Origin: Comamonas testosteroni
GTDB taxonomy: Bacteria; Pseudomonadota; Gammaproteobacteria; Burkholderiales; Burkholderiaceae_C
Direction: 5' to 3'
Assembly: GCF_030505195.1 (NCBI RefSeq)
Contig: NZ_CP129672.1
Span: 4,498,501 to 4,562,500, forward strand
DNA: 64,000 nt
Shown: piece by piece, positions 42,330 through 47,503 of the stretch
How the letters are laid out: the number at the start of each line of letters is the position of its first letter
How positions within the stretch are numbered: the stretch's first letter is position 1
Notes under the pieces: model-generated
Database searches by the model: none
The model's input: the letters and a program-made list of their open reading frames with translations, nothing else
Told to the model about the DNA's origin: nothing
Position numbers and translations under genes: made by a program

Positions 42330-43406
42330 ATGGCCTCGCAACGCAAGCAAGCCGCACAAGCCCCTGCCCAGCAGGGGCTTGTGCCTTCTGACGCGGTCGA
42401 GCAGAGCTGGGACGAAGCAGCCGAAGACGGCATTGCCTCGGCCGAGGTCGAGAGTCGCGAACTCACGGTCGCCACCGAGCATCATGGTCAGCGTGTGGAC
42501 AAGGTGCTGGCGCTGGGGGTGTCCGAGTTCTCGCGCAGCTATCTGCAGCAGTTGCTGGCCGACGGTGCGGTCACGCTCAACGGCAAGGTCTTGATCAAGC
42601 CCTCGGTCAAAGTGGCCGTGGGCGACCGCCTGCGTGTGGAGATGCGGCCCACCCAGCAAAGCATGGCCTTCAAGCCCGAGGCTATGGATCTGCAGGTGGT
42701 CTATGAGGATGAGGATCTGCTGGTCATCAACAAGCCTGCGGGTCTGGTGGTGCATCCGGCGCCCGGCAACTGGACGGGCACATTGCTCAACGGCCTGCTG
42801 GCGCGTGATGAAAAAGCGCGCCAGGTGCCGCGTGCCGGCATTGTTCACCGGCTGGACAAGGACACCAGCGGTTTGATGGTGGTGGCACGCAATCGCAGCA
42901 CCATGGATGCGCTCATCAAGATGATTGCCGCGCGCGATGTGAGCCGTCAGTATCTGGCGCTTGCCCACAAGCAATGGGGCAGCCGCAAGCGCCGCGAGGT
43001 CGATGCGCCGATCGGTCGCGATCCGCGCAACCGCCTGCGCATGGCGGTGGTGGATCTGAATCTGCACCCTGGCAAGCAGGCGCGTACCGATTTCGATCTG
43101 CTCGATGGCGATGCAGCGCACAGCCTGGTGCGCTGCACGCTGCACACCGGCCGCACGCACCAGATCCGGGTGCACATGGCTTCGCTCGGCCATCCGCTGG
43201 TTGCCGACACGCTTTATGGTGGTCAGCCCGAGGGCGGACTGGAGCGCCAGGCACTGCATGCCTTCAGGCTGGCCTTTGAGCACCCTGTGACGAAAAAGCC
43301 GCTGGTCCACTATGCGCCGTTGCCACAAGACATGGCCGGTGCACTGGATTTATGGGGTCTGCGTTACAATCTACCGGAAAGGTGCGACACGTTTGTCGCT
43401 CTGTAG
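42330..43406 (+). CDS. rluD: 23S rRNA pseudouridine(1911/1915/1917) synthase RluD, 3' end interrupted by group II intron
   Basis: An RluA-family synthase of 358 residues as read straight through. An S4 RNA-binding domain (about 50-110) precedes the catalytic HRLDKDTSGLMV (near residue 170), and LHTGRTHQIRVHMASLGHPL near 270 completes the site. It modifies helix 69 of 23S rRNA. The group II intron begins at 43382, inside codon AG|G, so unspliced RNA gives a tail NLPERCDTFVAL. Splicing to 46243 would give NLPESL and a stop at 46247-46249. ATG 42330 is used; a TTG at 42324 overlaps the nlpD stop and could also start it. Confidence 0.9.
   Translation: MASQRKQAAQAPAQQGLVPSDAVEQSWDEAAEDGIASAEVESRELTVATEHHGQRVDKVLALGVSEFSRSYLQQLLADGAVTLNGKVLIKPSVKVAVGDRLRVEMRPTQQSMAFKPEAMDLQVVYEDEDLLVINKPAGLVVHPAPGNWTGTLLNGLLARDEKARQVPRAGIVHRLDKDTSGLMVVARNRSTMDALIKMIAARDVSRQYLALAHKQWGSRKRREVDAPIGRDPRNRLRMAVVDLNLHPGKQARTDFDLLDGDAAHSLVRCTLHTGRTHQIRVHMASLGHPLVADTLYGGQPEGGLERQALHAFRLAFEHPVTKKPLVHYAPLPQDMAGALDLWGLRYNLPERCDTFVAL
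43367..43381 (+). other. Intron-binding sites IBS2 and IBS1 in the 5' exon
   Basis: CAATCT (43367-43372, IBS2) and CCGGAAAG (43374-43381, IBS1) at the end of rluD are exact complements of intron segments at 43956-43961 (EBS2) and 44019-44026 (EBS1). This pairing defines the insertion site. Confidence 0.85.
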
Positions 43407-44400
43407 TCGGTTGAGCCTCTGAAAACCGTACAACCAGACCTCCCAAGGGTCCGGTGCGAGGCACATTCTTCCCATCAGGCTGTACCCCACTGGGGTCAGT
43501 CCAGTCTCTGGCTCCGAGCTTCGGCAGCCTCATCAGCTTGACTATTCCTGCAATAGTCCGGCTCAGCTGTGGTCGCGTGCAATGCACGTCCCGGCCGTAT
43601 CACACTGACCGCCACAAGCGGACATTTCTAAGAAACAGAAATCCTTCATTGGAGGACTTCTTACGTGCATACGTTTTTGACTGATGGAAGAAGCACAGAG
43701 TGCAACTCTGACCTGCCTTGTCATGCTCCCCAGCGATGGAGTGTCATGACCTTGTGTGCAACCACAAGTAGCCTACGGTGACGTGCAAGACCAGTAATGG
43801 GTTTGTGCGAAGCTCACCTGACAAAGTACCCCCGCGCAAGCGGTACATCCGACCTGCGAGGGCGGATGTAGACACTGCCAGCAGAAGGGCGGTAGAGGGG
43901 CCAGGCTAGTTCCGCATGGGCAACGTAAAGTGAATCATCGTTTGAACCTAGATGAAGATTGAATGGCCAAATCTGCTGATAGGCCATAACCAAAAGGTGT
44001 GCTGCCAGGACTAACCGTCTTTCCGGGGTAGTCGTTGTCATAAGTGCAGTTCTAGGAGAGATGAGTCCTAACCGGATAGACATGCAGCGATGCGAATCGC
44101 CCGTGTCGGCAAGTCAGGGAACGTGGTAAGCCCCACTATCCGCCAGCATGCGTAAGCGTGTCGGCAGGGAAGCCGTAAGGCAACCTGTTGGATGAGGGGG
44201 TATGGGATGGTGGAAAAAGCGAATGGCTGCCTGTAATGGGTGGCATAGGGGTTCATACCCTGACGCGAAAGCGTGCCCACTTCCACTTGGTGCAACCGTC
44301 GCTCGCGACTGCATTTGTTTAAACCTAGCCCGAAGGGATTGTGCGTATCCCTTCGGGGAGACGTGCGTCCTCTGAGGGTTCAACTCGGTAGGAGGAAAGC

Positions 44401-46104
44401 ATGAGAAAACTCACCGGCGACGGCGAATCTGCGTCCTCACGCGAACCGCAAGACTGGCATGCCATCGATTGGCATCGTGTCGAGCAGTTTGTGAGAACGA
44501 CGCAGCAACGCATAGCGAAGGCAACGCTGGACAAGGACTGGCGCAGGGTGAAAGCTCTGCAACGGTCTTTATTCCACTCGTTTTCCGCCAGGGCTTTGGC
44601 GGTAAGACGTGTAACTGAAAACCAAGGCAAACGAACGGCGGGAGTCGATCGTCAGCTTTGGGATTCTCCTGCCTTGAAACGGGCGGCGATTGGAAGGTTG
44701 AAACAGCAGAGGGGATACAGACCCAAGCCATTGCGGCGGGTCTACATCCCCAAAGCCAACGGGAAGGAGCGTCCTCTGGGCATTCCAACCATGTTGGATC
44801 GGGCCATGCAGGCGCTACACCTGCTTGGACTGGAACCGGTGGCGGAAACCACGAGCGATCCGAATAGCTACGGCTTCAGGAGGAATCGTTCAACGGCAGA
44901 CGCTATGGGTCAGATATTCGTTTGTACATCCAAAAAGGCTTCGGCTCAATGGGTGCTGGAGGCGGATATTCGAGGCTGTTTCGACCATATCAACCACGAG
45001 TGGCTGGCGCGTCATGTTCCCATGAACAAGGCAATCCTGCGCAAATGGTTGAAAGCCGGGGTGGTCCACCAGGGACGCCTCTCGCCGACTGAGGAAGGGA
45101 CGCCGCAAGGCGGCATCATCTCGCCAACTTTGGCGAACATGTGTTTGAACGGGCTGGAAACAGGTCTGATCGCGCACCTTCGGGGGCATGTCGGAGCTAG
45201 GAAAGCTCAGAAGCTGAAAGTGAATGTGATCCGGTACGCCGACGATTTCGTAATCACTGGCAACTCGCGAGAGTTGTTGGAAACCGAAATCAGGCCGTGG
45301 ATAGAGGCATTTCTCGCACAACGAGGTCTGCAACTGTCGCCGGAAAAGACCAAGGTCGTTCACATAGACGAGGGTTTCGATTTTCTGGGGTGGAACTTCC
45401 GCAAGTACAAAGGGAAGTTGCTCATCAAGCCGAGCAAGAAGAACGTGCAAGCGTTCTATCGCAAGGTCAGTGAAACCGTGAAAACACACCTGTCGATGAA
45501 GCAGGAGGATCTCATTGCCAAACTAAACCCAATCCTTCGGGGTTGGGCAAGGTACCACCAGCCGGTGGTGGCGAAAGAAACCTTCAGTCGGATGGACAAC
45601 CTGATCTACTGGCGCATAGTGCGCTGGACGAGAAGGCGACATCCGAATAAATCCCGACCCTGGTGCAAAAGCCGTTACTGGCAGCGCATCAAGGATAGGG
45701 AGGAATTTGCTGCAACCGTGAAAACGGCAGATGGTCCGCTTACGACCAGACTGTTGAAGCTTGCGGATACAGAGATCGTGAGGCACGAAAAGATCAAGGG
45801 GGACTACAACCCCTTTGACCCGGCCTGGGAAGTGTATGGCGAGACATTGCGAACGAAACGCATGTTGAAAAACATGGCGTACCAGTACGAAACGTCGATG
45901 CTTTACATCAATCAGAATGGGCGTTGCGCTCTTTGCGCAGAACCATTGGAAGAGGGCGAGCGCTGGCACGACCACCACATTGTTCACAAGGTGGCGGGCG
46001 GGTCGGACAAGCTCTCCAATCGGGTGCTATTGCATCCGGTCTGTCATAGACGACTGCACGCTCTTGGTTTGCAGGTAGCGAAACCGGCCTCTCAAAGGCT
46101 TTGA
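44401..46104 (+). CDS. ltrA: Group II intron-encoded reverse transcriptase/maturase/HNH endonuclease
   Basis: A 567-residue multifunctional protein. An N-terminal conserved block (AIDWHRVEQFV, then QGKRTAGVDRQLWDS) is followed by the RT domain with GRLSPTEEGTPQGGIISPTLANM (near 230) and the catalytic YADD at residues 279-282. A maturase (X) domain covers about 340-470. A Cys/His HNH nuclease is at about 505-560 (Cys509, Cys512, then HDHHIVHK and PVCHRRLH). All key motifs look intact, so splicing, reverse transcription and target-strand cutting should be possible. AGGAGG lies seven bases upstream of the start codon. There is no frameshift or stop. Confidence 0.95.
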   Translation: MRKLTGDGESASSREPQDWHAIDWHRVEQFVRTTQQRIAKATLDKDWRRVKALQRSLFHSFSARALAVRRVTENQGKRTAGVDRQLWDSPALKRAAIGRLKQQRGYRPKPLRRVYIPKANGKERPLGIPTMLDRAMQALHLLGLEPVAETTSDPNSYGFRRNRSTADAMGQIFVCTSKKASAQWVLEADIRGCFDHINHEWLARHVPMNKAILRKWLKAGVVHQGRLSPTEEGTPQGGIISPTLANMCLNGLETGLIAHLRGHVGARKAQKLKVNVIRYADDFVITGNSRELLETEIRPWIEAFLAQRGLQLSPEKTKVVHIDEGFDFLGWNFRKYKGKLLIKPSKKNVQAFYRKVSETVKTHLSMKQEDLIAKLNPILRGWARYHQPVVAKETFSRMDNLIYWRIVRWTRRRHPNKSRPWCKSRYWQRIKDREEFAATVKTADGPLTTRLLKLADTEIVRHEKIKGDYNPFDPAWEVYGETLRTKRMLKNMAYQYETSMLYINQNGRCALCAEPLEEGERWHDHHIVHKVAGGSDKLSNRVLLHPVCHRRLHALGLQVAKPASQRL

Positions 46105-46167
46105 GTTCAGTTCAAAAGGTTTTCCGTCTTAAAATGGAAACCTAGCGAAACTGAACGTGTTGTGCTT

Positions 46168-46201
46168 GAGCCGGATGCGGTGAAAGTCGCAAGTCCGGTT
46201 C
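46168..46201 (+). ncRNA. Group II intron domain V
   Basis: A 34-nt hairpin GAGCCGGATGCGG, GAAA tetraloop, then the complement ending CCGGTTC. The sequence and position, just before the domain VI hairpin, are those of the catalytic core of group II introns. Confidence 0.93.
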
Positions 46202-46348
46202 TTAGGGGGGGATGGTTCAGCAATGAACTGTTCCTACCCTACCCTCTGACCATCACTCGCATGGCATCTTTGGGGCGCTTCCCTCTCTTCTTAGAATCAG
46301 GCGTCCCACCGTAGTCGGTGCGACGGCCGCTCCCGAAACGCTGCGCCC

Positions 46349-47503
46349 ATGAATACGGTAGATGCCAAGCGGGTTCTTGAAACAGCATTGATTTGTGCCC
46401 CGCAGCCTGTAACGCTGCGGGAATTGCGCTCACTTTTTGATGATGTGCTGGGCTCGGACACGGTTAAGGATTTGCTGCTGGATCTGCAAAAGGACTGGGC
46501 CCTCAAGGGCGTGGAACTGGTTCAGGTGGCTTCTGGCTGGCGTTTTCAGAGCCGGCCAGAGATGCGGGTCTATCTGGACAAGCTTCACCCCGAGAAGCCG
46601 CCCAAGTACACGCGGGCTACGCTTGAGACGCTGGCCATCATTGCCTACCGTCAGCCGGTCACGCGCGGTGATATTGAGGACATTCGCGGTGTGACCGTGA
46701 ACAGCCTGATCATCAAGCAGTTGGAAGACCGAGGCTGGATCGAGGTCATCGGCCATCGTGAAACCGTGGGTCGGCCCGCGCTGTTTGCCACCACGCGCCA
46801 GTTTCTCGATGATCTGGGTCTGCAGTCGCTGGATCAGCTGCCCATGCTGGAGGAAACCCAGGCCCAGCAAAGTCTGTTCAAGGCGCTGGATGGAGAGGAG
46901 GGCGAGCAGGCCGGTGCGGAGGATGCCCTGCCTCTGGAGGGGGTGGAAGCCGCAGAGCCGGCCGACGTCGTAGCGAATACGGATGTCGCTGCTGAGTCCG
47001 ATGCGGCTGAGAGTGAAGTCCTGGGTGCCTCGAATGAGGAAGATGGCGCCGAGGAGCAGTCTGCTCTAGGTGCTGATCAAGTGGCGGAAGGGCAGGCGGT
47101 GATTCAGGCGGAGCTTCAGCCTGAGTCCGATGTGCCGGAGCTGGAGTCATATTCAGTTCAGGCGCAGGCTGATATTGCGCAAGCTGCTACGGAAACAATA
47201 GAGACCGCGCTGGCTGACTCGGAGCCTGGGCCTGCTATGGAGCTGCCGTCTGTGAGCAAGCCCAAAGCGGCCAGGCCCGCCAGGACTGCCAAGGCGGCAG
47301 AGTCGCAGCCCAAGCCGGCGGCCAAGAAAGCAGGCCGTACCGAGTGGGTGGGACTGAAGGCGTTTCTCGAGGATGACTACGGCAGCGACGACGAGGCCGA
47401 GGACGCAAAGACGAAGGCGCGGGCCGACGATGCCGTCGAGTCGGCAGAACAACGAATTGTGGAGGATGACGATGGCGTCGTCCCCGAAGGAAAACTGGAA
47501 TGA
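46349..47503 (+). CDS. scpB: SMC-associated segregation protein ScpB, with long acidic tail
   Basis: A 384-residue protein. Residues 1-170 are the two winged-helix domains of ScpB ([24 protein letters not shown] near 90, [30 protein letters not shown] near 115). ScpB works with SMC and ScpA to organise the chromosome. From about 180 the protein is Glu/Ala/Asp-rich, then basic ([16 protein letters not shown]) and acidic again; such tails are disordered and much longer than in the roughly 190-residue Gram-positive form. It overlaps rluB by four bases. The intron now separates it from rluD. Confidence 0.9.

Follow-up and report, generated by a model that had tools for sequence, protein, structure and literature searches.

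Near the end of a gene for a 23S rRNA pseudouridine synthase, Comamonas testosteroni carries a group II intron, and the subject here is what that intron recognizes as its landing place. Gene and intron lie in a 64,000-nucleotide (nt) stretch of contig NZ_CP129672.1 (assembly GCF_030505195.1, positions 4,498,501 to 4,562,500), which we call the window and within which positions are counted. The features at the locus, all on the forward (+) strand, are given below; EBS and IBS stand for exon-binding and intron-binding sites, RT for reverse transcriptase.

42330 to 43381, + strand: 5' exon of the rluD-like gene, encoding an RluA-family 23S rRNA pseudouridine synthase (TIGR00005, 290 bits; PF00849, PF01479)
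43365 to 43370, + strand: TACAAT, a -10-like hexamer in the Tyr-Asn codons of rluD and proposed core of the intron target (TA[CT]AAT in 29/29 relatives; TAnnnT in 48/52 sites)
43367 to 43372, + strand: IBS2, CAATCT, perfect 6-nt complement of EBS2
43374 to 43381, + strand: IBS1, CCGGAAAG, perfect 8-nt complement of EBS1
43382 to 46242, + strand: group II intron, 2861 nt (joined flanks equal the empty site of relatives; RF02012 and RF00029 matches; second copy in the same genome)
43750 to 43900, + strand: match to RF02012 (group-II-D1D4-7), 122.4 bits
43956 to 43961, + strand: EBS2, AGATTG, 6/6 pairs with IBS2
44019 to 44026, + strand: EBS1, CTTTCCGG, 8/8 pairs with IBS1
44401 to 46104, + strand: intron-encoded protein of 567 amino acids with RT, maturase and HNH endonuclease (TIGR04416, 378.8 bits; RVT_1, RVT_N, GIIM, HNH)
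46166 to 46242, + strand: domains V and VI (Rfam RF00029, 67 bits)
46243 to 46249, + strand: 3' exon, CCTCTGA, the remainder of a Ser codon, Leu and stop
46349 to 47503, + strand: scpB, 106 nt behind the intron (TIGR00281, 107 bits; PF04079)

By its sequence, the element in the rluD tail is a group II intron with group IIB features and an LtrA-type protein: it has a GUGYG 5' end, domains V and VI, EBS/IBS pairing and an RT-maturase-HNH protein, with a YADD motif in the translated RT. It begins with GTGCGAC at 43382, splitting a codon after its second base (AG/G), and ends at 46242, where the RF00029 match stops. Its joined flanks, CCGGAAAG followed by CCTCTGACCATC, are identical to the empty site of close relatives (e.g., loci L005 to L008), which reads CCGGAAAGCCTCTGACCATCACTCGCATGGC, and moving the intron ends by one base in either direction breaks the match to this uninterrupted sequence. 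The original prediction had placed a group II intron with these ends within the last rluD codons, which the Rfam matches and the empty site bear out. It was also right that the pairing is perfect, over 8 bases for EBS1 and 6 for EBS2, but not that both paired stretches lie just upstream of the intron, as a single base (A, 43373) separates IBS2 from IBS1. When both strands of the 64 kb are searched, the combination CAATCT, 0 to 3 nt, CCGGAAAG has a single match, and that match is the insertion site. The RT is 51% identical to those of introns of E. coli plasmids, and the intron may belong to the CL (EcI5-like) class. As for the hallmarks of class C, insertion behind an intrinsic terminator and the lack of an endonuclease domain, the HNH domain is present here, and no terminator-like site was found on the + strand in 43200 to 43382 upstream of the intron.

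The host gene, previously called rluD, scores above the cut-off of the RluA family. The RluD equivalog is its top-scoring named equivalog, yet the score stays under the cut-off of that model (268 of 351 bits), so rluD-like is the safer name. The spliced product is predicted to end in NLPESL and the unspliced one in NLPERCDTFVAL, each followed by a stop. We compared this with the rluD ends of the 29 best matches (L004 to L032) among 52 other genomes of the genus: 24 of the 29 end in -SL before the stop (20 in -ESL), none has the unspliced tail, and none has an intron at the site. The comparison, which had been suggested along with the prediction, agrees with splicing restoring a Ser-Leu-stop end. 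The idea that splicing meaningfully decides the ending of RluD finds no support, since the conserved family match stops at residue 341 of 360 and the exchanged residues lie outside it. In the remoter members of the genus (L023 to L032), rluD stops earlier or has other tails; the C-terminus is variable, and the TA[CT]AAT box is kept.

This box, TACAAT in the window, is separated from the intron by 11 nt. TA[CT]AAT is found at the rluD end in 29/29 genus relatives, in 27 at Tyr-Asn codons and in 2 (L029 and L032), which have an earlier rluD stop, between the genes as part of GGGCTACAATCC. Its Asn codon is AAT in 27/27 relatives; outside the box, 54 of the 209 rluD Asn codons are. Because the box persists in intergenic DNA and AAT is invariant in the Asn codons, it looks to be conserved as DNA, not as protein. 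It would probably serve scpB.

The same genome has a second copy of the intron (L002:1501-4361, also 2861 nt, placed by the empty site in relatives), 90% identical across the whole intron. This copy precedes carA (TIGR01368), behind CCTATAATGGGCGGCTTT and 53 nt past the stop of the upstream open reading frame (ORF), which by eye looks like an RNA methyltransferase gene. Its EBS1 and EBS2 are unlike those of the rluD copy and fit its own site, GU pairs included. The carA site is empty, with TATAAT, in 29/29 relatives. A copy of C. terrae (L042) had been a candidate for the same location and was ruled out, as the carA site there is empty (L186).

We then asked what lies in front of related introns. 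A scan of named genomes for RT relatives supplied 80 loci, which together with six genus loci and L002 make 87. A 5' flank was available for 80 of these, 81 including the window, and the 81 flanks reduce to 52 distinct site sequences (less than 80% identical over 30 nt). The seven loci left out are L046, L103, L112, L117, L121 and L127, with unclear 5' ends, and L122, a duplicate of the L042 record; L123 was excluded for stops in its translation. Intron starts were placed by hand in L042, L066, L113 and L118. When the best hexamer is sought at start offsets -19 to -13, 51 of 52 sites match TATAAT in at least 4 of 6 positions, 39 in at least 5 and 17 perfectly; for 40,400 positions drawn at random from these loci, the rates are 7.1%, 0.47% and 0.05%. 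The lone site below 4/6 is L063, with 3 matches. In 50/52 sites a hexamer of at least 4/6 ends 9 to 12 nt upstream of the intron.

Choosing the best TATAAT is circular, and the sites were therefore also anchored on the EBS2-IBS2 pairing. With this anchor, T stands two bases before IBS2 in 50/52 sites, A one base before it in 52/52, and T at the fourth base of IBS2 in 49/52, and the other columns are more variable. TAnnnT is the core of the sigma70 -10 box, the three constant bases matching T-12, A-11 and T-7. It occurs at -15 to -18 in 48/52 sites, compared with 0.99% of 130,774 background positions. The target thus reads, from 5' to 3', T-A, a 6-nt IBS2 with T as its fourth base, 1 to 4 nt, IBS1 (taken as 6 nt), and the insertion point. 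The RNA part of the target differs from site to site. Scoring GU pairs as half, the fit of each intron to its own site averages 5.34 for EBS2-IBS2, compared with 3.89 in 2000 site permutations (standard deviation [SD], 0.095; highest, 4.20), and 5.39 for EBS1-IBS1, compared with 3.88 (SD, 0.090; highest, 4.17). The own-site fit lies far above the permuted one, so EBS1 and EBS2 follow the site they are found at, T-A-n-n-n-T is constant, and the family would have moved from promoter to promoter.

At 47/52 sites, a same-strand ORF of at least 80 amino acids starts within 400 nt behind the intron, and in 21 of the 46 such ORFs outside the window the first possible start is 14 to 40 nt behind it. 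In G+C-rich DNA, picking the first ORF behind a site by its length says little, so we ran family searches (NCBIfam) on 30 of the 46, a chosen, non-random set. A named family was matched by 26, 18 of them above the curated cut-off, and 4 had no match. Those above the cut-off are the carbamoyl-phosphate synthase small subunit, LptA, CTP synthase, S15, IMP dehydrogenase, HisZ, UbiH, phosphatidylserine decarboxylase, UvrC, adenosylhomocysteinase, serine-tRNA ligase, SecA, RibF, PmbA, peptide deformylase, DinG, LipB and FtsY. Two groups of sites precede tRNA-Leu(CAG) and tRNA-Tyr(GTA) as called by ARAGORN, and genes downstream include, among others, carA, pyrG, guaB, serS, secA, rpsO and tRNA-Leu. 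Two further assignments were dropped: a tRNA-Ser behind L050, where ARAGORN gives tRNA-Tyr, and lptD downstream of L111, which the family scan does not bear out.

From these alignments, we consider it likely that a proteobacterial group II intron lineage uses the -10 element of sigma70-type promoters as its DNA target. A hidden transcription start signal would then most likely be the reason for the intron's place in the last rluD codons.

To see how far the trait extends, we collected a later set of 37 loci from order-wide and class-wide searches and from plasmids. Nine were excluded beforehand (L129 and L132, repeats; L139, L144, L149, L151, L152, L160 and L161, without a usable start or flank), leaving 28 usable new sites, and the genome's own second copy (L140) was uncounted. 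Where the RT is at least 57% identical, 7/7 loci have a hexamer of at least 4/6 and 6/7 have TAnnnT; below 57%, the counts are 3/21 and 1/21, the latter being L166 (41%). On an RT tree of 115 rows (from a quick search), the trait was scored in 105, being present in 79 and absent in 26, and requires 4 changes. Of the 26 rows without it, 21 fall in a single clade of 26 rows (5 of them unscored), and the rest are L070, L105, L113, L118 and L146.

Two observations concern remoter introns. In L166, the intron lies behind a perfect TATAAT starting 15 nt upstream, which may reflect either a deeper origin of the trait or convergence. L113 and L118 (Xenorhabdus), L119 (Gilliamella) and L137 are outside the promoter pattern and inserted immediately after a stop codon; in L113 and L119 an ORF ends at the insertion, and in L118 and L137 the stops (TGA and TAA) are read from flank letters alone. 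Insertion just after a stop codon may be another way of sparing a gene.

Several points weigh against -10 targeting. The relatives compared are the best 80 of 314, and the 52 sites represent fewer genes than that, as guaB appears four times (L054 to L057, the L056 start being read by eye) and pyrG twice, with species counted apart. The 57% divide was chosen after viewing the later-loci result, and there are exceptions above it, L146 (58.9%), L070 and L105, to which the L113/L118 site is added in the 52-site set; L119, with an RT identity of 56%, is likewise without the trait. T-7 falls within IBS2, and EBS2 often pairs with AAT, so that T-A before IBS2 is the sole part fully independent of the anchor. 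At the rluD tail itself, a consensus promoter scan called no promoter, and beyond the genus the box was found in 1 of 3 loci; at its score limit, the order-wide rluD search had matches in 5 of 120 genomes, of which 2 belong to the genus. Finally, a -35 element (TTGACA, at 16 to 18 nt) does not stand out over the 52 sites. Its mean best match is 2.46 of 6, compared with 2.24 for shuffled sequence (SD, 0.115; highest of 1000, 2.60) and 2.13 to 2.50 at other offsets, and 6/52 sites reach at least 4/6. A strong -35 is not required in every sigma70 promoter.

It is possible, though we think it rather unlikely, that the lineage recognizes a homing motif containing A and T, made up of T-A and the EBS2 pairing and unrelated to transcription, and that promoters are hit only because words like TATAAT are otherwise rare in G+C-rich genomes. 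TATAAT indeed has just 21 occurrences when both strands of the 919 kb of flank are counted; the -35 result fits such a motif, and EcI5-type proteins are described as reading a few bases upstream of IBS2 (PMC2882425). However, landing at promoters would be the outcome anyway, given that housekeeping and tRNA genes follow in sense and the boxes are conserved in intron-free relatives, and T-7 is constant although EBS2 could track a change there. It is tempting instead to start from the rluD copy, as the original prediction did, and to suppose that the intron targets or persists at extreme gene ends, where it does little harm spliced or not and might affect the RluD C-terminus. The copy does sit in the last rluD codons with an exact EBS/IBS fit and a restored -SL end, and a few remoter relatives start right behind a stop codon. 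We nevertheless consider this very improbable: the second copy stands before carA, well past the upstream stop, most sites have a same-strand ORF start closely downstream, and the residues exchanged at rluD are outside the conserved family match. Intron relatives are not at gene ends as a rule, which leaves the proposed preference unsupported, and judged from the sites compared here the gene-end location is incidental. Insertion into any easily melted AT-rich stretch, with no base-specific reading of the -10 box, would suit the AT-rich -16 to -11 region and the 50 to 60% A+T at -24 to -21, but it is scarcely credible when the pattern is base specific (T-A-n-n-n-T, with set bases in place of A and T used interchangeably) and A+T is just 29 to 42% at -20 to -18 and -9 to -5.

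How might recognition of a -10 box work? In known relatives, the RNA pairs with DNA through EBS1, EBS2 and EBS3, and the protein, which also opens the DNA, recognizes a few bases just upstream of IBS2; the EcI5 protein reads C-18, C-17, A-15 and A-14 and that of TeI4h reads A-15 and C-16, and in the TeI families EBS divergence reaches new sites (PMC2882425). By analogy with EcI5 and TeI4h, the protein here would read T-A, mostly at -16/-15 (promoter T-12 and A-11), and the RNA the rest, with EBS2 matching IBS2 (the remainder of the box) and EBS1 matching IBS1 (the start region). Transcription usually starts 6 to 9 nt behind a -10 box. The intron would therefore insert in sense, about 2 to 6 nt past the start, and leave the promoter whole; it would be transcribed from there as a leader of the host gene and do little harm. 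At the rluD locus, the intron would have landed at the -10-like box, probably the one serving scpB, and thereby also inside rluD. Read-through rluD RNA has the full 5' exon, and its splicing could yield the native -SL end; RNA from the captured promoter would carry only about 2 to 6 nt of 5' exon, with IBS2 and part of IBS1 missing, too little for normal splicing. A more speculative extension, which we think unlikely to hold, is that the lineage lives off captured promoters: most of its RNA would arise as a nearly free linear intron with the downstream gene attached, which would splice poorly yet feed mobility. Melted promoter DNA (roughly -11 to +3) would be the stretch paired by EBS2 and EBS1 and might help in this.

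Of the systems already described, the CL/IIB1 introns EcI5 (E. coli) and TeI4 (Thermosynechococcus) resemble the present one in being group IIB introns with an RT-HNH protein and a target read by EBS1, EBS2 and the protein. They differ in that the constant pair here is T-A, mostly at -16/-15, and the whole target is a -10 box, a comparison made for EcI5 with its published description. Class C introns resemble the present lineage in using one type of transcription signal as a landing place and sparing coding sequence, but they insert behind intrinsic terminators or in attC and have no endonuclease domain, whereas this lineage inserts behind a -10 box and has HNH (PMC4424553 and PMC8919778). According to a 2015 review, bacterial group II introns have three target specificities, namely homing sites, terminators and attC sites (PMC4424553). 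A 2022 prokaryotic survey measured strand bias and how far introns lie from terminators, and it raises the question of what makes the CL-type introns of Cyanobacteriota increase, should they have no relation to terminators; the word promoter occurs 0 times in it (PMC8919778) and is likewise unused in a study of Enterobacteriales introns (PMC3522654). In the Thiomargarita genome, many introns neighbor key replication and repair genes, with ribosomal protein genes among the examples, and the accessible text gives no motif (PMC4853749). Among the matches listed in openly licensed literature (titles and abstract starts), there was no report of promoter targeting by group II introns, and we did not find a -10 element described as their landing place. 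As for the position within rluD, a group II intron reportedly occupies the last codon, the stop codon, of another conserved gene, groEL of Azotobacter.

If the proposed -10 targeting is true, reading of the -10 box would add a further specificity to the three named above. This would account for the spread of introns with changing EBS through the promoters of basic genes at little harm, and the RNA made by such a promoter should be without the exon bases needed for splicing. It would also be a lead toward engineered introns that land at promoters.

Two other observations came from the related introns. Introns that split a tRNA-Gly gene in the anticodon arm carry, in 4/4 cases, an intact tRNA-Gly of the same anticodon just upstream of the RT ORF:

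L143, 1389 to 1462: intact tRNA-Gly inside the intron, genome G204
L154, 1365 to 1438: intact tRNA-Gly inside the intron, genome G683
L156, 1380 to 1453: intact tRNA-Gly inside the intron, genome G757
L164, 1367 to 1440: intact tRNA-Gly inside the intron, genome G683

An exact pattern search, strict enough that it could miss variants, found no other intact tRNA-Gly with the same anticodon in these three genomes. The intron-borne gene has the look of a rescue (or addiction) copy built into the element, for which no report appeared by title among the literature matches listed. Lastly, a 2837-bp circular P. aeruginosa record labeled a plasmid (L152; CP075775.1, 1 to 2837) consists of exactly one related intron head to tail, with GTGCGAC at position 1 and CTACCCGAC at the end; it may be either an intron DNA circle or an assembly artifact.

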